A stretch of DNA of 31,968 nucleotides from a virus. Positions 12,204 through 27,570 of this stretch are shown in pieces. Position 1 is the stretch's first letter. The number at the start of each line of letters is the position of its first letter. The position numbers and the translations under genes were made by a program. Location of the stretch: positions 1 through 31,968 of IMG/VR virus record IMGVR_UViG_3300011115_000608. One strand, given 5' to 3'. The notes beneath the pieces were generated by a model, which saw nothing but the letters and a program-made list of their open reading frames with translations, ran no database searches and had not been told where the DNA came from.

Positions 12204-13658
12204 TTACTCCAATAAAAGGCAATTATTAGCGGCAGCTTGCATGATGACCCAATTGGTGCCGTCAGACACCATTGTCGCCCAATTGCCTGCAACTGCCAAG
12301 AGGATTGCGGTGCCCGCCGCCCCACCGGCTTGGGGGACGACGTTGCTCGACGCTGACACCAACGTCTGGGCTTGATAGTTTTGAAAGGTCAATGTGCGGC
12401 CAGTCCATGACGATGCGGCTGGCAAGGTGACTGTACAGGTAGCGCTCGACTTATTGTTGATAAACCAAGTTTCACCGTTGGCAACCGTAAAATTGGCAGT
12501 TTTGGTGACCGGTGCTCCTGATGCTGCCGCCAACACAGATGCTGGCGTCACATTTGTCCAATAGCCCAGTGAGGTGCTGTACTGAATCAAGTCAGTATTG
12601 GCTAACGTGCCAAACTGCACGTTGGAATCTGTGCCGCCAAGTTTTGAGCCCCGAGCAATTCCAACTTGAAATGACCCAGAGCCGCCTGCCCCCGCTTTAA
12701 TTACAAGGCCAACTTGCACCTTAATGTAGGGGGCAACAGGTTCAACTTTGGTGGGGTTGCCTGTTACGGGGTTGTACCAAATAATATCATCGTCAGCCCA
12801 AACTTCACCGAAAGCCGTGCCGTTGGTGGTGATGCCGCGCACCACGCCAAACGATGTGACACGCCCAAAACCATTAAGCGCCAAATCTTCAGTAGCTATG
12901 CCGACAATTGCATTGGCATCTGTAATCCCCGCAATCGTGGGTGCAAACGTAATAACGCCGCTGGCCCCCACAGTGCCCGTGTGGCAAACAATTTGTAATG
13001 GTGAATCTGTAATGGCCGCAGACGCTTTGCCATAAATAAACAGTTCTTCACCAACTTGCTGAGTAATGTTGCCCCCACCCATGCCCAAATTCCAAGCACC
13101 AGTGGAACCGTCATACCACATTTTCCCTGCGGCAAGAGTGACAGCCGAGCCGTTGCTAAACTGTTGAGACAAAATGCCGCTAGCGTTGCCTGTGTCGCTA
13201 ATTGTGACTACAGAATTTTGAATAATCTTGCCCGTAGTGCCGTCAAATCGGGCAACGGCATTGTCTGTGGCACTAGCAGGGCCAACAACATAGCCATAGC
13301 CTTCTATGAGGGCCGTTGGAATTGGCGTCAAGTTAAGTGCGTCAATCTGTTTTTGCATTTCTGCGGTTTGAGACACCAAGGCAGAACAGCAGTCAGTCAA
13401 TACGTCAGGAACGGGTAAGGTAACGACAGGCGGCAACGTTTGCAATTCCTGATTAACCAAACGAAGCGCTGCATCGTAGGACGCAATCAAGGATACTGAG
13501 TCAGGGCCAAGGTTACCATCATCTACCACATCAGTCGCAATGTTACTAAGCGACAAAAAGAACAAATACCACGCCCGGTCGATCAACCCGGTGCGCGGGT
13601 CGATCAACGGCACCCTGGGGGGTGTAATAGGCGTTGGATTTGCGTTTGGGCTAGGCAT
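12204..13658 (-). CDS. Fibre-like virion protein (484 aa)
   Basis: A 484-residue protein with a proline-rich N-terminus (PITPPRVPLIDPRTGLIDRA) leading into WYLFFLSLSN, a signature I know from podovirus tail or head fibre-type proteins. A helical stretch around residue 110 precedes a long beta-rich region with DNAVARFDGTTGKIIQNS (about 132-149), common in phage fibres. The C-terminus is beta-rich and ends NNCLLLE. It occupies the slot of the P22 tail needle gp26 but lacks gp26's long coiled coil. It overlaps the gp10-like gene by eight bases; no clear ribosome site is seen. A virion role is fairly sure, its exact location is not. Confidence 0.7.
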   Translation of the reverse strand: MPSPNANPTPITPPRVPLIDPRTGLIDRAWYLFFLSLSNIATDVVDDGNLGPDSVSLIASYDAALRLVNQELQTLPPVVTLPVPDVLTDCCSALVSQTAEMQKQIDALNLTPIPTALIEGYGYVVGPASATDNAVARFDGTTGKIIQNSVVTISDTGNASGILSQQFSNGSAVTLAAGKMWYDGSTGAWNLGMGGGNITQQVGEELFIYGKASAAITDSPLQIVCHTGTVGASGVITFAPTIAGITDANAIVGIATEDLALNGFGRVTSFGVVRGITTNGTAFGEVWADDDIIWYNPVTGNPTKVEPVAPYIKVQVGLVIKAGAGGSGSFQVGIARGSKLGGTDSNVQFGTLANTDLIQYSTSLGYWTNVTPASVLAAASGAPVTKTANFTVANGETWFINNKSSATCTVTLPAASSWTGRTLTFQNYQAQTLVSASSNVVPQAGGAAGTAILLAVAGNWATMVSDGTNWVIMQAAANNCLLLE

Positions 13659-15291
13659 TGGTCGGGCTAATGATTAACTCGGCCCCCATGATGGCCACTT
13701 TGACCGGATCAGTCATGGACAACTCATAAACGCGGTCTCGCAGCTTGACTGTCATGCCTAACCGCCGCCAAAACGTTCTGTGGCCATACGCACCGATTCT
13801 GCCAAGTGGCGACCAATGCTCGTTTGACCAAGTGTGGCCGCCATCATCCGACCAACGCAACATGGCTTCAGGCTCGTAGCCTGGTGCAGCAGGGTATGAA
13901 TTGGTGACAATTTCATAGCCCGTAATGTCAGTATCTGATAGCTCGTATTGCCCAATCGGTTCAAAACCATCCCCTGCTTCAGTGGTCAATATGTCGCCTG
14001 ATTGAGTGGCCAAATAGGTTTGCACATATTGAGCCACAAGGTTTAACCCTGACTCAGTGTCTATGTTTTCGCTGGCGTATGCAGGGTATAGATTTAGCCC
14101 TACGCCCGTTTCGCAATCCAATTGCAAGCTGTGATGGGCCGTGCGTTTGAGGTTGTTTTGACCCGTGGGCAGCGCCCGCCAGGTGCGCAGCCACTTCTGA
14201 ATTTCTCCATTGTCGGCATACACGTCAAGGTCAAAGGCGTAGATATTGCCGTTCTCATAATCACCAACAACAATTTTGTTGTTAAATGCCATCTGGCAAT
14301 TGCTACGGTGCCGAGTAAACTCACCTTGAACAAAGCCTGCCCGCTCATGCCAGGCTTGAGTGGCTGCGTCGTACACCCAAGTGGTGTTGGCCGTGGGGAA
14401 AATCAGCACATAAAAGCTGTGACCATCCTGTTGATAAGTGTACGCAATGACGTCCGACATGTCGCTGTACTGTTGAATTTGCCATTCAACCGCATGGGTG
14501 GAGATGCGCTGGCCTTGGTACCCGTTGGCCCTGTAAACAATGCCCTGCCCCCGGCGATCCCGGCCCAGCCAGAAAAGGCCATTGTCCATCTTGGCAATTG
14601 AGTATGGCGCTGCGCAGCCAAGTTCGTTGAACGCGCCTTGGATGCGTTGCAAGGGGAAGTCTGTAGCGCCTGAGTCGTACCAGACCTCGATAGAGTTTGT
14701 GCCAAAGGCCCAAACTTCGCGGAAGTTGGACACCACGGCCAGCAGGCCGTCAGGCGACCCTTCGGTGCTGGCAAACTCAAGCGGATCAATGGACGTGCCG
14801 TCCAAAAGGGTGGTCACCCACATCTTTTGGCTATTGGGCTCGTTGAACACAAAATAGCCGTCCAGATAGCAGACCGTTACCGCGCCGGGAAAGTCAGGGT
14901 CAGTGATCTGGCCAAAGGCGTTGGTGGTGTTGTTGTAGATATAGCTGGGGCCGTTGGCTGCAATGAACAGTTGCGTGCCGTTGTCGGCCATGCTAACCGG
15001 CCCAGAACCGGCCACGGTGCCAATCAGTGTGGGCACGTAGGCGTTGTTGATCTTGTAGAGCCGAGTGCCTGACACTACAAAGCCGACGCCATCGTTAGGC
15101 GAAAACGCCCACAGCCCACGAACCGGGCCATCGCCCATTGTTGACAAAAACGCCAAGCCTGGGCAACGTTGCAAAAATGCCGGCTCTTTACCACCCTCGG
15201 GGATAACTTCTGGAAATAGATTGACCATACGGGCATCCGCAGCGTTGACGCTGCGGGTCACGTAGGTCGAGCCAAGGATGGGCGTTTTCAT
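13651..15291 (-). CDS. P22 gp10-like packaged DNA stabilisation protein
   Basis: A 546-residue protein of the phage stabilisation family. It opens KTPILGSTYVTRSVNAADAR and continues MVNLFPEVIPEGGKEPAFL, the family's hallmark start, then shows repeated propeller-like strands (RGLWAFSPNDGVGFVVSG, VWAFGTNSIEVWYDSG, GLFWLGRDRRGQGIVYRA). In P22, gp10 closes the portal channel after packaging and joins gp4 to the tail needle. The ATG at 15291 overlaps the upstream TGA by one base; an in-frame TTG one codon earlier is less likely. It lies after gp4-like and before the tail-tip genes, as in P22. Confidence 0.92.
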   Translation of the reverse strand: MKTPILGSTYVTRSVNAADARMVNLFPEVIPEGGKEPAFLQRCPGLAFLSTMGDGPVRGLWAFSPNDGVGFVVSGTRLYKINNAYVPTLIGTVAGSGPVSMADNGTQLFIAANGPSYIYNNTTNAFGQITDPDFPGAVTVCYLDGYFVFNEPNSQKMWVTTLLDGTSIDPLEFASTEGSPDGLLAVVSNFREVWAFGTNSIEVWYDSGATDFPLQRIQGAFNELGCAAPYSIAKMDNGLFWLGRDRRGQGIVYRANGYQGQRISTHAVEWQIQQYSDMSDVIAYTYQQDGHSFYVLIFPTANTTWVYDAATQAWHERAGFVQGEFTRHRSNCQMAFNNKIVVGDYENGNIYAFDLDVYADNGEIQKWLRTWRALPTGQNNLKRTAHHSLQLDCETGVGLNLYPAYASENIDTESGLNLVAQYVQTYLATQSGDILTTEAGDGFEPIGQYELSDTDITGYEIVTNSYPAAPGYEPEAMLRWSDDGGHTWSNEHWSPLGRIGAYGHRTFWRRLGMTVKLRDRVYELSMTDPVKVAIMGAELIISPTNA

Positions 15292-15821
15292 CAAGCCGCA
15301 ACTGCTTTGATAACTGCAAAATTAAAAACTGGTTGTTCAGTTGTTGAGCCACCAGTGGTGCGGAATGTAATGTTAAAACTACCGGCTCCCACCGCAGTAA
15401 CCATTAAATCGTACAAGTCAGTGCCTGACTTTTGGTTTAAGATAATGACATCGGTTGCCGCTACGGTGCTGTTGGTTACAGTAAAAGTTGCCGCAGTACC
15501 CGAACCCGCCGCGCTTACTAACGTGATTGCGCCCGTTGTTTTGTTCAACGTAACGCCTGTGGTGCGACTTGATGCTTGCGTGACCGCCCCACCAGCGCCT
15601 GTGGCATAGCCCACGCCTGCCGTGCCAGTGGACACAATAGTGCCTGTGGCAGTCAGGCTTGTACCCGTGGCCGCGCCAATGTTTGGCGTCACCATTGTTG
15701 AATTGGTAAACAACAACGCATTAGTGACTTGTTTGGTTGTGCCTGATTGCACAATCGGCAAGACATCAGCAGCAGCGGCAGCAGTTGCTACGGGGAGGGA
15801 AGTGATTGCAATGGTGGCCAT
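15291..15821 (-). CDS. Small fibre/decoration protein (176 aa)
   Basis: A 176-residue Thr/Ala/Gly-rich protein. The N-terminal 40 residues (TSLPVATAAAAADVLPIVQS then GTTKQVTNALLF) match the N-terminus of the 187-residue protein at 21711-22274. The remainder has GVGYATGAGGAVTQASSRTT and GSGTAATFTVTNSTVAATD, a beta-rich module frequent in environmental phage virion proteins. It is inserted between the gp4-like and gp10-like genes, where P22 has nothing. Probably a surface fibre or decoration protein. It overlaps the gp10-like start by one base. Confidence 0.7.
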   Translation of the reverse strand: MATIAITSLPVATAAAAADVLPIVQSGTTKQVTNALLFTNSTMVTPNIGAATGTSLTATGTIVSTGTAGVGYATGAGGAVTQASSRTTGVTLNKTTGAITLVSAAGSGTAATFTVTNSTVAATDVIILNQKSGTDLYDLMVTAVGAGSFNITFRTTGGSTTEQPVFNFAVIKAVAA

Positions 15822-17248: not shown

Positions 17249-18448
17249 TCAACCCCAAATGCGGCAGGCCATTTGTGGACGAATGGTGCTGTAGCCGTAC
17301 AAGACATCGATACGACAGGGCATCCGGTCGTTGTTAATGTCATACTGGCGAACCACACGCAAGCTGATGCCATTGTGAACGGCACGCGCAGCCATATCGA
17401 CCCCCTGCGGCAGCAAGAGATCAGCCGTGGCGAACGAAATTGCATCTTTGTGGTAGACCAAGTTCTGGGGATACTGAGTTGAAGCAGCACCCACAAACAC
17501 CACAGCCTTGGCAGTAGCAGGCAAAGTCAGCATGGTAGCCAGAGCATGGTCGGCCGAGTACATGGCCGCTACGGTCACGGTAGCGGTGGTGCTAGCAGTC
17601 GTTGATGCCAAAGCCACAAACTGGAACAACGAACCAGTGGATTCACGGGTTTGCGGGTTCACAGCGTAGCAGTCAGCAATCGTGAACACGTCACCAACGG
17701 TGATGGTTTCACCAGAGCCAACAGTCAACGACAGCGTCGCAGAACCTTCAGCGGTCACAGCGGCAGCAGTGACGGTGCCGGTAGCGGCGCGGGTGCCAGT
17801 GGAGTGCTGCTTGATCGACTGAGACATGTTGATCTCGTCAAAGCCCAACACACCCATGCCCATCATGCCGTTTTTGAATTGGCGGCTGATGGTATCGGTG
17901 GGGTTGAACAGACCCTTCATGCCTTCGACCAAACCAGCGTTAGCGGCGGGGTTGACGGTGGCATAACGGGGGCTCATCACAGCGGCGTTCTCGTTCAGCT
18001 TTTGCTGGGCTTGCAACAGCACCAAAGAAGTAGAAGGAGTGGTGCCAGGCGTGCCCACGGTGTTACCGATGCTCTTGTAAGCATTGGCGACGTCGGCGTC
18101 GATAGAACTGGCCAACTGGCTGATACGAGGCTTCAACACACGCTCTGCGAAGTCATCCAATTGCATGGTCAATTCGGCAGAAGTGAAGTTCACGCCGATA
18201 TGCTTTTGGGTTGACACGGTCAAGGTGGTGAACTGTTCGTTGTCGTCTTGAACTTGCAAGGCGGCGCCGTCGGTCACCAAAGCGCGATCAGGCAGGCGAA
18301 TACGCAGGGTCGAACCAATCTTGGCACCTTCAACAGCAAAGCTGTCGTCGTACTGACGGTTCACGTTACGGGTCAACACAAGGTTGTTTTCGAGAATCTC
18401 AAGCGCTTTGCGCGTGATCATGTCGATGGTTAAGATACTGTTAGCCAT
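17249..18448 (-). CDS. Major capsid protein, P22 coat family
   Basis: A 399-residue protein of the P22 coat (gp5) family, the main shell protein with the HK97 fold. The N-terminus MANSILTIDMITRKALEILE continues NNLVLTRNVNRQYDDSF, and KIGSTLRIRLPDRALVTDGA follows, all typical of the family. Later blocks include AERVLKPRISQLASSIDADV and the C-terminal DRMPCRIDVLYG. P22 gp5 has 430 residues, so this is a normal or slightly short member. AAGGA precedes the ATG. It follows scaffold and is followed by a hairpin terminator, consistent with high expression. Confidence 0.95.
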   Translation of the reverse strand: MANSILTIDMITRKALEILENNLVLTRNVNRQYDDSFAVEGAKIGSTLRIRLPDRALVTDGAALQVQDDNEQFTTLTVSTQKHIGVNFTSAELTMQLDDFAERVLKPRISQLASSIDADVANAYKSIGNTVGTPGTTPSTSLVLLQAQQKLNENAAVMSPRYATVNPAANAGLVEGMKGLFNPTDTISRQFKNGMMGMGVLGFDEINMSQSIKQHSTGTRAATGTVTAAAVTAEGSATLSLTVGSGETITVGDVFTIADCYAVNPQTRESTGSLFQFVALASTTASTTATVTVAAMYSADHALATMLTLPATAKAVVFVGAASTQYPQNLVYHKDAISFATADLLLPQGVDMAARAVHNGISLRVVRQYDINNDRMPCRIDVLYGYSTIRPQMACRIWG

Positions 18449-18471: not shown

Positions 18472-19257
18472 CTAGCGGTTTGCCTGCAACTTTTTCATCT
18501 GTCGGGCTCTTTCGGCTTCAATCCACTCAGACGCTGTCATGGTCTTGGTAGACCGTGGGTCTGTCGTGTCATAGGCCGGTGCTCCAGAAGAGCGAGCCGT
18601 CACGGGCGAAATCGGTGCTGGCGCGGACGTGGTTTTCTTCATTGGTGGATCGCTGGCCAATTTGGCCTCAATCCGTCCAATTTCCTTGGCCTGCAAGATA
18701 GGTGCAAGACGGGAAATTCGATCTGCTTCCTTGGGGTTTGCACCGAGGTAGTAGGCTACTTCGGGGCCAACGTCCGAGGCTTGGATCGTCTGAGCCATCA
18801 CGGTCGTGATTGGAAGTTTCGGGTTGTACGCGACTTGTTCAAAGTCATCGTATTTGCTCCGAGCTTCTTCTTCCTTCTCATGGTAGGACTCAAGAATTTC
18901 AGATTGCTGCCTGGCTTGTTCACGCTGGGCGAGCAGCTCTTCAGCCTTTTTGTAAGCCAATGCGTCTGCATAGGCTTCGGGGCTTTCAAACTGATCAACC
19001 GGCGGGATGTCTGCTGGCGCTCTCAATGCTTGCGTTTCCGCTTGCCTTTGAGCTTGCTCTCTTTCCCACTTACGCTGTTCTCTCGCAAGCCGCTTACCGA
19101 TGGCTGCGTCAAGTTCTTCTTGGGTAAAAACCCGAGGAGCTTCTTTCTGCTCATCAGCGACTACCGGCGCATTTTCTACAGTCTCAGGAGTGGCCGTCAC
19201 TTCCGTTGCTGGCGCGGAGTCAACTTCCGCTAGGTTTTGTTGGACTTCTTCAGTCAT
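18472..19257 (-). CDS. Capsid scaffolding protein
   Basis: A 261-residue, highly charged, helical protein just before the coat gene. It has an acidic Val/Thr/Pro-rich N-terminus (residues 1-45), a FTQEELDAAIGKRLAREQRK helix near 44-63, a long Glu/Gln/Arg helix around 95-130, and a basic C-terminus (TASEWIEAERARQMKK) that likely contacts coat, as the helix-turn-helix of P22 gp8 does. The EEL...IGKRLAREQRKWERE motif is shared by many phage scaffolds. AGGA precedes the ATG. Its job is to direct procapsid assembly and then leave. Confidence 0.88.
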   Translation of the reverse strand: MTEEVQQNLAEVDSAPATEVTATPETVENAPVVADEQKEAPRVFTQEELDAAIGKRLAREQRKWEREQAQRQAETQALRAPADIPPVDQFESPEAYADALAYKKAEELLAQREQARQQSEILESYHEKEEEARSKYDDFEQVAYNPKLPITTVMAQTIQASDVGPEVAYYLGANPKEADRISRLAPILQAKEIGRIEAKLASDPPMKKTTSAPAPISPVTARSSGAPAYDTTDPRSTKTMTASEWIEAERARQMKKLQANR

Positions 19258-22756: not shown

Positions 22757-23119
22757 TTATGCCAAAAAGCGGAGTTTGTACAGGGTTGTTAAATACAGCT
22801 CGATGATGTTGTCAATGAGCTGCTGCAAAGATGAATCAGACTTGTCGCACACGTTGTAGCGCTCTTTCTCAATTTCATCCAGCGAGTCTTGCAAGAATTC
22901 AATCACGTTGCTGGTCTTTTTGGCCGAATGCAGCGTGATTGGCCCCATCAGGCCATGCCGGCCTTGGTAGGCTTCAGCAAATGCGTCTGCGTGGTCAATG
23001 ATGCCGTCGTAGAAAGCGTTCAAGGCCACATGCTTGGAATAGCTGCGGGTGTTCAGATGCACCGAATGGGTCACATCTCGGGCCAAGAACAGCAACCCTA
23101 CAAAATCACACGCTTTCAT
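22757..23119 (-). CDS. DUF5856-type protein with Dps-like ferroxidase residues
   Basis: A 120-residue, all-helical protein directly after the portal gene (ATGA overlap). Its first helix pair reads LARDVTHSVHLNTRSYSKHV, then LNAFYDGIIDHADAFAEAYQ. His18, His30, Asp45 and Glu49 have spacings of 12, 15 and 4, exactly those of the Dps ferroxidase centre (His51/His63/Asp78/Glu82 in E. coli Dps). Remaining residues form two further helices. I recall the family as DUF5856, found in phages, without known function. It is shorter than Dps (about 165). Iron or peroxide chemistry, or DNA protection in the cell or capsid, is inference. Confidence 0.75.
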   Translation of the reverse strand: MKACDFVGLLFLARDVTHSVHLNTRSYSKHVALNAFYDGIIDHADAFAEAYQGRHGLMGPITLHSAKKTSNVIEFLQDSLDEIEKERYNVCDKSDSSLQQLIDNIIELYLTTLYKLRFLA

Positions 23120-25329
23120 TGTGGCATCCCTTGTTGTGGCATACCGCCTTGAGGCGGCATCATCTGTTGAGGTGCATATTCAGCAGACTCAGGCATCATT
23201 TCATTTTGCTCTCTGCCAGGCATTTCGCTAACCAAGTCTCCTGATGTGATCATGCCATGCACCGTCCCCAAGACTATATCTTGAATTTGCTCTGGTGACA
23301 TACTTGCCTGCACTTGGGCCAAACGCTTGGTTTCAGCATCATAGCCTTTGATCATTGCCTCAAAGTCCTTGCGCTCTTGCTCTTGCACTTCAATGGACTT
23401 GCCCACGTTTCGGATCATCTGGTGCATCTGCTCCATCTCTTGGCCCATGGTTTGAATCTGCTGCTGAGCCGCCTGCAAGGCTGGGTTGTCTTCGCCGTCT
23501 GACAAAAACTTGGGATCAATCGTTTTGGCGAAACGCTTGGACATTTCTTGGGCGCCTGGCCAATCCATGTTCTTGACAAACAGGTCACCGGCCACAGCCC
23601 ACAGTTGAGGATTGCCTTGCAACAGTTGTGCCATTGCCTCCAATGCCTCTTGACGTTTGGTCGCGTAGCCTGGGCCAGTGATTGCCACCACGTCGTACTT
23701 GCCGACGCCTGGGTTGTAGATTTTCTCAATTACAATCCCGCGCTCGTCCGTGATCTTGTTGACCGGCTGGGGCTGGTCAGGGTTGATCTTGATCATCTTG
23801 GTTTCGCCATCTTCACCAATGATGCGAGCGATGCGCTGGGTGTCGTAAATCTTGGGTATCAAATCCACCAACTGACGGGCCACATGGCGCACGCCACGGG
23901 CTAGGTTGTCGCCGTAATGGTAGGTGCCGACATCGCCTTCGCGCTGGCGCGCAAGAATGGCTTTGCCGCTGCGCTCGTTGCTTCCCATGCCCAAACTGGC
24001 GTTGTATTGGCCAGTGGTGGACTTGATGTCTTCAGACGCACCCGCCTTGGCTTGCAGAAGGCCGCTGGAAGCCATTGGAGGCTGCGCCCGCTGGGGTAGT
24101 GGCAGAATTGCGCCTTGGCCGTCTGTAACGTCTGGATTGACCTCCAAATACGGCCAATTTTGCGTGTTGGCGGTCTTCCACTGTTGTTCGTAACCTTCAA
24201 ACTGGCCACCGTAGCCAATAAACGGCGCTTTGGGCGCTAAAGCCAGCATCTCGGCTTCTTGGCTGACCCAGTAGTTGTACATGCGCTGGGCATCCTTGGC
24301 GTTGCGCACCAAGCCCGACACGTACAAGCGACCGTCAACTTCAAATTCGTTACCCACAATGCGAATGACAGGAATCCACTTGCCCGCCCACTCGCGTTCT
24401 TCAAGGATTTCGTACCCGTTAATCTTGCAATATTTGACCTTGGGACGGTCAGACTCGCGGGATTTTTTGGGCTTGCCGTAGATGGCCCGCAGTTGTTTGT
24501 CCTCGGGCGTGCCTTCAAAAGCAGTTTGATTGCCGGGGTACAGGTTCAGCGTTGTGCGGTCGTAGTCGATGTAGTAGTAGTCCGCAATGCGGATTGTGTC
24601 TTCATTGAGCCAGTTGCTGATCGACTGATCGCCCACACCCAGCGACTGCAAAGTCGTGATGGGCGCAGCGTCTGGGTACATCCGCTCAAACTCGGCCTTG
24701 GTGATGTCTTCCGTAACAAAGCACCACTTGGCATCTGCGCCGGTCGGGTCTTGAATGGTTGGATCCATGTAGACCGAAAATGAGTTGCGCACACGGCCAA
24801 TTTTGATGTCTTGATCAAATGTGTTGTCGTCGCAATACTCGGTCAACAGGCGAAGGTACCCTTCGCCGTAAGAAACTTGGTTTTCGCAGGCAGTGTCGTA
24901 GGCCACATCGGCGTCGCTGATGTACTCGATATGCCGAATCATGCCGTTGAAGATGTCGGCCACTTCCACGTCGGCGTTGTCGTCCACCGGGATGACCTTG
25001 GCACCGGGCCGATTCTGGCGCTGGTCGTTGGTAACCTGGCGCACATGCTGGGGCAACTTGTTGATCGTGAGACACGGGCGGGCGTTGATTGTTTGACCTT
25101 GCACCGCGCCACGGGTGGCCAGCACATCGGCAGGCCATTGCCAATGGTTGTCGGGCGAGCCAGCGTAAAACCGCAAGTCGTCGATCTCATCTTCGCGGCT
25201 CTCGGCAAGCGCGGACACCGCCAGATCAAGCCTGGCACGGGCTGTGGCCAGGATGTCAGACGCGCTCTTCTTAGGTTTACCGCCTTCGGCCACTGCGCCA
25301 GCAGCCGCAATGCCTGTGTAATCTGCCAT
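23116..25329 (-). CDS. Portal protein, P22 type
   Basis: A 737-residue portal, close to P22 gp1 (725). Family features are the early helix ARARLDLAVSALAESREDEI, DDLRFYAGSPDNHWQWP, then NKLPQHVRQVTNDQRQNRPG (about residues 90-109), YDTACENQVSYGEGYLRL and VYMDPTIQDPTGADAKWCF. The Gln-rich C-terminal helices (LQAAQQQIQTMGQEMEQMHQ) would form the barrel inside the capsid. It forms the dodecameric DNA gate and the base for gp4. The start ATG overlaps the upstream TAA by one base (TAATG) and has no own ribosome site. High confidence in function. Confidence 0.95.
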   Translation of the reverse strand: MADYTGIAAAGAVAEGGKPKKSASDILATARARLDLAVSALAESREDEIDDLRFYAGSPDNHWQWPADVLATRGAVQGQTINARPCLTINKLPQHVRQVTNDQRQNRPGAKVIPVDDNADVEVADIFNGMIRHIEYISDADVAYDTACENQVSYGEGYLRLLTEYCDDNTFDQDIKIGRVRNSFSVYMDPTIQDPTGADAKWCFVTEDITKAEFERMYPDAAPITTLQSLGVGDQSISNWLNEDTIRIADYYYIDYDRTTLNLYPGNQTAFEGTPEDKQLRAIYGKPKKSRESDRPKVKYCKINGYEILEEREWAGKWIPVIRIVGNEFEVDGRLYVSGLVRNAKDAQRMYNYWVSQEAEMLALAPKAPFIGYGGQFEGYEQQWKTANTQNWPYLEVNPDVTDGQGAILPLPQRAQPPMASSGLLQAKAGASEDIKSTTGQYNASLGMGSNERSGKAILARQREGDVGTYHYGDNLARGVRHVARQLVDLIPKIYDTQRIARIIGEDGETKMIKINPDQPQPVNKITDERGIVIEKIYNPGVGKYDVVAITGPGYATKRQEALEAMAQLLQGNPQLWAVAGDLFVKNMDWPGAQEMSKRFAKTIDPKFLSDGEDNPALQAAQQQIQTMGQEMEQMHQMIRNVGKSIEVQEQERKDFEAMIKGYDAETKRLAQVQASMSPEQIQDIVLGTVHGMITSGDLVSEMPGREQNEMMPESAEYAPQQMMPPQGGMPQQGMPQ

Positions 25330-25792: not shown

Positions 25793-26050
25793 TTAACACT
25801 TCCATCGTTTGAGTGAAGCCTTGGCGCGTTCAGCATCGCCTTTGGCATGCTTGACTACACCTTCCATGCGGGCGCAAAAGCTGGCTTTGCGGCCAGCATC
25901 TGCTTTGGTCTTGGGGTTGGGTGCTGGCGCCTTGAGGTTGGAGCCCGTGGCGGCGTTGTATTTCTCGCGCCCTTTGGTTGTCAGGCCGGCGCCTTTGGAC
26001 ACCGGCAACTTTTCGCCGCGCCCTACGCTTAAAGATACACCTTTTTTCAT
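25793..26050 (-). CDS. DUF6321-like small basic protein (85 aa)
   Basis: An 85-residue protein with SVGRGEKLPVSKGAGLTTKG and ATGSNLKAPAPNPKTKADAG, followed by KASFCARMEGV and the ending ALKRWKC-like (ASLKRWKC), the standard blocks of a phage family I know as DUF6321. The ATG at 26050 overlaps the terminase stop (ATGA); an in-frame ATG at 26062 inside the terminase gene is the alternative. Strongly basic, so nucleic-acid binding is possible. Role unknown; it lies between large terminase and portal. Confidence 0.78.
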   Translation of the reverse strand: MKKGVSLSVGRGEKLPVSKGAGLTTKGREKYNAATGSNLKAPAPNPKTKADAGRKASFCARMEGVVKHAKGDAERAKASLKRWKC

Positions 26051-27570
26051 GCGCCCATCCATCCCGTAGATACTGCGCTACCGTAGCTTCTGGCGGTGCG
26101 CTTGGGTTCAACATACTCACGGTGTGCCACTGGAAAAGCAAATGTGACGGCAATGGCGTCAGCAGCGTCGGGTGAGGCAAGACCGCGAGCTTTCATTTCC
26201 TTTTTGCTTTCCAAGAAGATTGTCCCCCGTGAATCAGGCTTCATCATAGGCGAAATCAAGTCCGTCTTCAAGAACCTGTCGTTGGGGATACTAGCAGATT
26301 TCAGCCATTCTCGCATATCCCCCCACATCTGGGCTCGCATATTACCGTACATGATCGGATTTTTGGACTTATTTCCAAAATTTATGCCCTTGACCTTGTA
26401 CCGTTGCTCTTTAAGCCTGTCCACAATACCCGCGCCCAAGCCGCCTTCGTCAATCACGACCAGCGCCGGCTTAAATTCGTCGATTGCTTCGATCACATAG
26501 CCCACCACCGTCGTGGTGTCGTCGCCTCGGTGGCGCATAATCTTGACAATATCCCGCCCTTGCCTGACCGCAATGACCGTTGCGTCCGCGCCAAACCGCG
26601 CCGGGTCTACGCCGATCACAATTGGCGCGCTGGCGTCCTTATATTTGGGCCGGGCCATGGCGTCGTCCACAATGTCGGCGCCGATGAACTGATCGTCGCC
26701 CGCACTTGGGAACATGCCGTAGACCTCGACGTGCGCTTGGGAAGAATCAGGCCCATATTCGTCAATGATTCGGTTGTAGACCGCCTTGTCGGTGCCCTCG
26801 ACCGTCCTGGCGTCCACAATCCGGGTGCGCCAAAACGCCCGTTTGGAGTTAAACGCTTCGTAAAAGTACCCAGTGTTGCGCCGTGGGTTGGAAAAAGCCA
26901 ACCAAAAGCGGTTTGGCGTGTTTTCTGTGAAAAAGCCGCCTGTCACCGCCCAGATCGAGTCGTCAATACCCGACGCTTCGTCAAAAACCACCAGCACACC
27001 ATCAAAATTGTGGACACCAGCGTAAGCGTCGGGGTTCTCCGCTGACCACAGCCGCCCTTCCACGCCCCAGTAGCGCGTGCCTTTCTTCAAATCTCGCTCA
27101 ACCAACTCAGTCAGCCACTTGGCCGGCATCACTCTGGTGGCGCTGACTTCAAACCAGTGCGAGTTGATTGACATCGCCAGCCACTTGGTGATCTCGGCCC
27201 AAGTGATTGACCTGAGCTGAGACTCACTGTTGGCCGATATGATGGTTGTCGACCCGATTCTGGTGGCCAGCATCCAGATCGTGATCCAACTGACCAGCGC
27301 CGACTTGCCAATACCCCGGCCAGACGAGATGGCCTCTTGCAAAACATCAAAGTCAGTCTTGCCCTGGTTCAGTTTGATGTGCTCGGCGATGTCCAGCAGC
27401 ACCTCGCGCTGCCATTTGCGGGGCCCGCTAAAGTGCTCCAGCGGCGTGCCCTTGACGCCCCAGGGGAAAGCAAACATTACAAACGCTAACGGGTTGTCCT
27501 TGATCGCCGGGCTCCACAGCCGGGCCATCAGTTCTTGTTCGTCTTCAGCGCTGTATATGGTGCTCTGCAT
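26047..27570 (-). CDS. terL: Terminase large subunit
   Basis: A 507-residue packaging motor with both domains. ATPase: SGRGIGKS (83-90) as Walker A, VLVVFDEA (192-199) as Walker B with Glu198, and FSNPRRN (226-232) as the coupling segment. Nuclease: GVDPARFGAD (320-329) with Asp322, VVIDEGGLGAG (371-381) with Asp374, and SPDAADA (466-472), the RNase H-like acidic triad. It cuts concatemers and drives DNA through the portal. It overlaps the small terminase gene by 26 bases and has no clear own ribosome site, so it is probably coupled. This type with a P22-like portal often packages by headful, but that is inference. Confidence 0.95.
   Translation of the reverse strand: MQSTIYSAEDEQELMARLWSPAIKDNPLAFVMFAFPWGVKGTPLEHFSGPRKWQREVLLDIAEHIKLNQGKTDFDVLQEAISSGRGIGKSALVSWITIWMLATRIGSTTIISANSESQLRSITWAEITKWLAMSINSHWFEVSATRVMPAKWLTELVERDLKKGTRYWGVEGRLWSAENPDAYAGVHNFDGVLVVFDEASGIDDSIWAVTGGFFTENTPNRFWLAFSNPRRNTGYFYEAFNSKRAFWRTRIVDARTVEGTDKAVYNRIIDEYGPDSSQAHVEVYGMFPSAGDDQFIGADIVDDAMARPKYKDASAPIVIGVDPARFGADATVIAVRQGRDIVKIMRHRGDDTTTVVGYVIEAIDEFKPALVVIDEGGLGAGIVDRLKEQRYKVKGINFGNKSKNPIMYGNMRAQMWGDMREWLKSASIPNDRFLKTDLISPMMKPDSRGTIFLESKKEMKARGLASPDAADAIAVTFAFPVAHREYVEPKRTARSYGSAVSTGWMGA

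Follow-up and report, generated by a model that had tools for sequence, protein, structure and literature searches.

Genomic context of the DUF5856 gene

The stretch of DNA analysed here (the window) is the whole IMG/VR virus record IMGVR_UViG_3300011115_000608, which comprises 31,968 nucleotides. The original prediction concerned a 120-residue open reading frame located after the portal gene, for which no strand had been given. The reading frame is confirmed and lies on the minus strand, the plus strand of 22757-23119 having in-frame stops. The genes that define its context are the following:

26047..27570, minus strand: terminase large subunit, same gene block, upstream of the DUF5856 gene (PHROG 2, E 1.8e-38)
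23116..25329, minus strand: P22-like portal protein, 737 aa (PHROG 156, E 3.6e-130)
22757..23119, minus strand: 120-aa DUF5856/PHROG 858 protein, predicted to be a Dps-like ferroxidase with four helices (Pfam, PHROG, AlphaFold2, Dps fold match)
18472..19257, minus strand: head scaffolding protein, same gene block, downstream (PHROG 8865, E 8e-30)
17249..18448, minus strand: major head protein, same gene block, downstream (PHROG 283, E 3.2e-73)
13651-15294: head-closure open reading frame, downstream (PHROG 578)

Downstream of the DUF5856 gene, the order is tailspike-like protein, scaffold, major head protein, head closure, DNA-ejection protein and endolysin. Given that its neighbours encode the terminase, portal, scaffold and head proteins, the DUF5856 gene lies among the head genes of a P22-type podovirus. 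In the window, the stop codon of the portal gene and the start codon of the DUF5856 gene overlap by 4 bases, which supports the previously suggested coupling of the two genes, in the form of translational coupling; the DUF5856 gene is presumably expressed late. The portal protein itself ends in a Met/Gln/Pro/Gly-rich tail (...APQQMMPPQGGMPQQGMPQ), encoded at window positions 23116-23200, just ahead of the DUF5856 start.

A relative of the window portal is found directly upstream in 152 of the 216 related loci with enough upstream DNA, and the remainder belong to T4-like phages, Ackermannviridae, very large phages and a few others. In phage DSL-LC05 (L083:561-809), a gene for the co-chaperonin GroES directly precedes the portal/DUF5856 pair.

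Family membership and distribution

Assignment of the protein to DUF5856, as given in the original prediction, is borne out by Pfam (PF19174, E 1.7e-20, 74.3 bits versus a curated cut-off of 34.6). The protein also matches PHROG 858 (E 2.9e-24), the name of which, 'starvation-inducible transcriptional regulator', is carried in RefSeq by many phage proteins and evidently derives from Dps. By tblastn, 1,313 phage records contain a relative, and in 1,277 the match covers at least 80% of the query. The records comprise T4-like phages, Ackermannviridae, jumbo phages and a few podoviruses, to which IMG/VR contributes hundreds of podovirus contigs similar in kind to the window, as well as very large phages. 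Members from large phages (L088, L098-L120) carry N-terminal extensions of ~40-70 residues, which are of low complexity and partly acidic.

The family is essentially phage-only. Among 14 control genomes, the DUF5856 model matches just one, that of B. subtilis, below the cut-off, and a plasmid search returned no credible relative of the window protein. Among bacterial chromosomes, DUF5856 was found in 1 of 100 genomes of one order, that genome being the search centre, chosen for its phage-like DUF5856 contigs.

Predicted fold and homology to Dps

Structure prediction of the monomer had been proposed as a check on the original prediction, and the AlphaFold2 model (56 sequences; pLDDT 94.9, pTM 0.88) is a confidently predicted four-helix bundle with helices at residues 3-23, 27-55, 72-90 and 96-118. 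Its closest solved structure is Dps2 of M. smegmatis (Z 14.0, 2.2 A, 118 of the 120 residues aligned), and the match to E. coli Dps is also close (Z 12.9). A second family member (L224; pLDDT 89.7) matches Dps2 with a Z of 15.1. Residues 56-71 are non-helical in the model, so that the short B-C helix of Dps is predicted to be absent. Foldseek E-values of the model are weak (0.024), and bundles of other ferritin-like proteins follow closely behind Dps (Z about 12). Thus, the fold alone identifies the protein as ferritin-like, and it is the sequence that places it nearest to Dps. Among viral structure models, matches in BFVD include proteins of the giant eukaryotic viruses Pithovirus LCPAC404 and Fadolivirus (A0A481ZC29 and A0A7D3V608; TM 0.73-0.80, 20-23% identity), raising the possibility that the mini-ferritin extends beyond phages.

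When sequences in the PDB were searched with a profile of 13 diverse family members, the top matches were Dps proteins (MrgA, 2chp, E 3.6e-6; S. aureus Dps, 2d5k, E 9.8e-6). A profile of 56 members retrieved NapA (1ji4, E 1.4e-5); when the profile was instead built from a member whose A-B loop is full-length, NapA was matched with the best E-value of all these searches (2.4e-6). By contrast, a single-sequence phmmer search of the PDB with the window protein yielded nothing relevant, which indicates that Dps is reached by family profiles only. With hhalign, the family could be aligned to 40 bacterial Dps sequences across 114 columns, at a probability of 90.5 and an E-value of 1.3e-6. Among 50 column-shuffled controls, the best value was 0.016, and one bacterioferritin gave 0.46, a weak control given that it is a single sequence; against a set of just three Dps sequences the probability was 23%. 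The Ferritin model PF00210 does not match the window protein at E 10 and matches 4 of the 56 relatives (best E 0.01). Similarly, NCBIfam returned only chance matches for the window protein, and its Dps models appear among the 56 relatives at 0.009-0.04. Collectively, the profile matches, the hhalign comparison and the predicted four-helix fold lend support to the earlier view of a shortened Dps-like protein, and the family is very probably homologous to Dps.

Invariant residues and proposed ligand assignment

An alignment of 181 distinct family proteins, drawn from podoviruses, T4-like phages, Ackermannviridae and very large phages, contains exactly four invariant columns, which correspond to His21, His30, Asp45 and Glu49 of the window protein. 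Family-wide invariance of exactly these four residues is far above chance. Their codons, together with that of the neighbouring His18, are located as follows:

23066..23068, minus strand: His18, probably no ligand, lying a turn ahead of His21 (178/181)
23057..23059, minus strand: His21, proposed first ferroxidase ligand (181/181; coincides with the H-W histidine of Dps in alignments)
23030..23032, minus strand: His30, proposed ligand (181/181)
22985..22987, minus strand: Asp45, proposed ligand (181/181)
22973..22975, minus strand: Glu49, proposed ligand (181/181)

The ferroxidase ligands of Dps are His51, His63, Asp78 and Glu82 in E. coli and His31, His43, Asp58 and Glu62 in L. innocua. In both the HMMER and the hhalign alignments, His21 coincides with the H-W histidine of Dps and is followed by a 3-residue gap, and the profile with the complete loop aligns to NapA ungapped, with the ligand set falling on NapA His25, His37, Asp52 and Glu56. 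Throughout the 181 proteins, residues 30 and 45 are always 15 apart and residues 45 and 49 always 4 apart. The distance from His21 to His30 is 9, 12 or 13, showing that the A-B loop varies in length, and that from His18 to His30 is 12, 15 or 16. The correct ligand spacing in the window protein is therefore 9/15/4, the canonical 12/15/4 occurring in only 10 of the 181 members. T4 rI.-1 (MobD.6, NP_049716.1), which bears the PHROG 858 name in RefSeq, belongs to the family and retains the ligands as His33, His42, Asp57 and Glu61.

His18 was considered as a ligand and rejected, since it is not invariant and the alignment places His21 on the Dps ligand. It is replaced by Gln in two members (L106 and L112) and by Tyr in one, and its 12-residue separation from His30 is due solely to an A-B loop that has lost 3 residues in the window protein. 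In Dps, too, a histidine commonly stands three positions ahead of the H-W histidine (as in THNYHW and in the H-x-x-H-W of PDB chains matched by the 13-member profile), and it is this histidine to which His18 is equivalent. The two members with Gln, which come from very large phages, read A-Q-V-Y-H-W and thus combine Gln at the His18 position with a Dps-type H-W, an arrangement that E. coli Dps presumably shares; they are possibly the least derived branch of the family.

The original prediction had identified His18, His30, Asp45 and Glu49 as a set with the exact spacing of Dps (12, 15 and 4). The numbering and spacings are accurate, but the first ligand of that set was placed one helical turn too early, His21 taking this role instead, and the claim of an exact Dps spacing is not supported. 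The pattern H-x11-H-x14-D-x3-E arises in 0.09% of composition shuffles and is also present in one other long frame of the window, the stop-to-stop frame of the head-closure open reading frame at 13651-15294. Since it occurs by chance in both, spacing alone proves little, which calls for caution in reasoning from motifs only; the match being coincidental, the right family had been reached by coincidence. As for the expectation that the four residues would be conserved across the family, it holds for His30, Asp45 and Glu49, whereas His18 varies and His21 is invariant instead; the expectation is thus borne out in spirit, a complete candidate ligand set being invariant in the family. We consider it likely that the family has a metal-binding site of the ferroxidase type. 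Where the last helix starts, Asp95 (170/181) and Asp103 (176/181) are also highly conserved; by analogy, they may line the iron entry as in Dps.

Relatives detected in virions and linked to lysis

The record of LIMEstone1 ORF078, a 34%-identical relative, reads 'confirmed structural protein', and the protein was identified in virions by mass spectrometry (13.15 kDa, 28.21% coverage, 3 peptides; PMC3296691, Table 2). ORF078 is tied to the family by the record note, by the computed mass of 13.149 kDa for the 117-residue member and by 33/117 residues. Its detection makes packaging, which had been among the original suggestions, plausible. Sajous1 gp217, detected by mass spectrometry with 10 peptides, was called ferritin on the basis of Phyre2 (PMC10892097); judging from the gene order relative to RegB and from the fold reported by the authors, it very probably belongs to this DUF5856 family. 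A member from fENko-Kae01 was detected by LC-MS/MS, to which we give little weight because the sample was a filtered lysate with 220 phage proteins. Overall, the family protein is probably virion-associated in some phages.

A different line of evidence comes from T4, in which over-expression of rI.-1 slightly delays the collapse of lysis inhibition (Golec et al. 2010, as described in PMC6832632). However, RaK2 encodes a homologue of Aeh1 RI.-1 but has no RI, RIII or T holin (PMC3622015), and lysis inhibition thus cannot be the shared role of the family.

Proposed function and alternatives

With moderate confidence, and on the basis of sequence comparison and structural modelling, we propose that the window protein is a shortened, phage-restricted relative of Dps, a working ferroxidase that would limit iron and peroxide damage during infection or in the virion. 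The four helices are predicted to form a ferritin-like bundle. As in Dps, two subunits would contribute to each site at a two-fold interface, one supplying His21 and His30 and its partner Asp45 and Glu49. Fe(II) bound at this inter-subunit site would be oxidised by peroxide or oxygen; both free iron and peroxide would thereby be cleared, limiting Fenton damage to the phage DNA and the infected cell, and a small amount of ferric iron would be stored or carried by the protein. Being placed immediately behind the portal gene, the DUF5856 gene would be read along with the head genes, and in some other phages the protein has been detected with virions. Assembly into a dimer or cage, the identity of the metal, catalysis, the time of expression and the biological benefit are elements that we infer. 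To our knowledge, biochemical activity is known for no family member. Given that the four invariant residues correspond to the iron-binding ones of Dps, many phages probably carry their own iron-detoxifying enzyme.

An observation that speaks against the ferroxidase reading is the effect of over-expressed T4 rI.-1 on lysis timing, which is not obviously explained by such an activity (PMC6832632). In a more far-reaching reading, which we regard as unlikely, the widespread family that contains T4 RI.-1 would be a minimal virion-borne or infection-stage ferroxidase, assembled differently from Dps, with which phages control iron and peroxide in the infected cell, and in T4 its activity would feed into lysis timing. 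The family might instead act as an accessory of lysis timing, modulating holin/antiholin timing as proposed for T4 RI.-1, with the metal site being structural or a redox sensor. T4 rI.-1 does retain the ligands and adjoins rI, but the reported effects are slight and stem from over-expression, most members reside in phages or loci without rI (the portal operon or the structural cluster of Ackermannviridae), and RaK2 has the gene without the lysis-inhibition partners; this role is very unlikely. Association with virions invites yet another interpretation, namely, that the protein is an iron carrier (a 'ferrojan horse'), packaged or tail-bound, whose iron or ferroxidase activity would be used during entry or in the initial minutes of infection, and not for late protection. 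The authors of the Sajous1 study proposed such an iron-based entry route, and the virion protein ORF078 as well as the position of the window gene within the head block are compatible with it. Nevertheless, tonB and feoB mutations left infection by Vi01-like phages unchanged (PMC10892097), T4 rI.-1 and the podoviral gene are not consistently near tail-fibre genes, and low peptide counts can reflect contamination, so we view the carrier function as doubtful.

Two further possibilities dispense with iron oxidation. Homology to Dps, the location beside the portal and terminase genes and one record in which a family protein is named 'DNA binding protein' would fit a Dps-like nucleoprotein that binds or compacts DNA during packaging, without relevant ferroxidase activity. 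This is highly improbable, because the pI of the protein is 5.8, equal to the family median, podoviral members have no lysine-rich tail, and the conserved residues are metal ligands rather than basic surface residues; for the first two of these reasons, the original suggestion of DNA protection is not indicated as far as protection by binding is concerned. Alternatively, a protein of the ferritin fold could hold another metal (Zn or Mn) or have a purely structural metal site and act as a virion or assembly factor. The identity of the metal is unreadable from sequence, the ligands are invariant, a relative is virion-associated, and the equivalent of Asp67 is lost. However, the His/His/Asp/Glu set is that of the Dps ferroxidase centres, and we consider this reading very unlikely.

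Significance

The link to Dps is not new, being implicit in the names of PHROG 858 and of RefSeq proteins, and a probable family member has already been called 'ferritin' (PMC10892097). Accordingly, the new parts lie elsewhere: in the invariance of exactly four ligands, in the corrected ligand assignment, and in the unification of T4 RI.-1, the virion proteins of Ackermannviridae and the portal-linked podoviral gene in one family. DUF5856, found at good coverage in at least 1,277 deposited phage records, thereby gains a testable biochemical function, and this applies also to T4, whose rI.-1 was previously without a molecular function. If the ferroxidase works, handling of iron and peroxide would emerge as a common phage trait and not a rarity of gut phages.

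Comparison with known systems

Phage-borne ferritin-like proteins have been described before, for example in 'Gratiaviridae', and canonical Dps and Mn-catalases in gut phages were read as oxidative-stress proteins (PMC8008677). They resemble the present family in this respect, but were described as known cellular families, with no statement on DUF5856. Within the family, T4 RI.-1 has the four ligands and differs from the window protein in adjoining rI, in its proposed accessory role in lysis inhibition and in its N-terminal extension. The Ackermannviridae proteins, LIMEstone1 ORF078 and very probably Sajous1 gp217, likewise conserve the ligands, but their genes are located in the structural-gene cluster of large myoviruses and not after the portal gene.

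The closest cellular counterparts are the Dps proteins (E. coli Dps, B. subtilis MrgA, L. innocua Dps and H. pylori NapA), with which the family shares the predicted ferritin-like four-helix bundle, the His/His/Asp/Glu ligands in the same order, significant profile similarity over 114 columns and the H-x-x-H-(W/F/L) stretch common to many Dps. At the same time, the window protein is shorter (120 aa versus about 145-167 in Dps), and most family members have an A-B loop 3 residues shorter than that of Dps. Many, though not all, Dps carry a basic or lysine-rich DNA-binding tail, which the window protein lacks. The acidic residue that Dps has four positions after the second histidine (E. coli Asp67, L. 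innocua Asp47) varies in the family, in which N, G, R, E, Q, D or K occupies position 34, and the model has no counterpart of the short B-C helix found at the Dps dimer interface. Owing to these last two differences, assembly or the second metal site may differ from those of Dps. Thus, the window protein appears to be Dps-like in its working, yet should not be filed as a canonical Dps.
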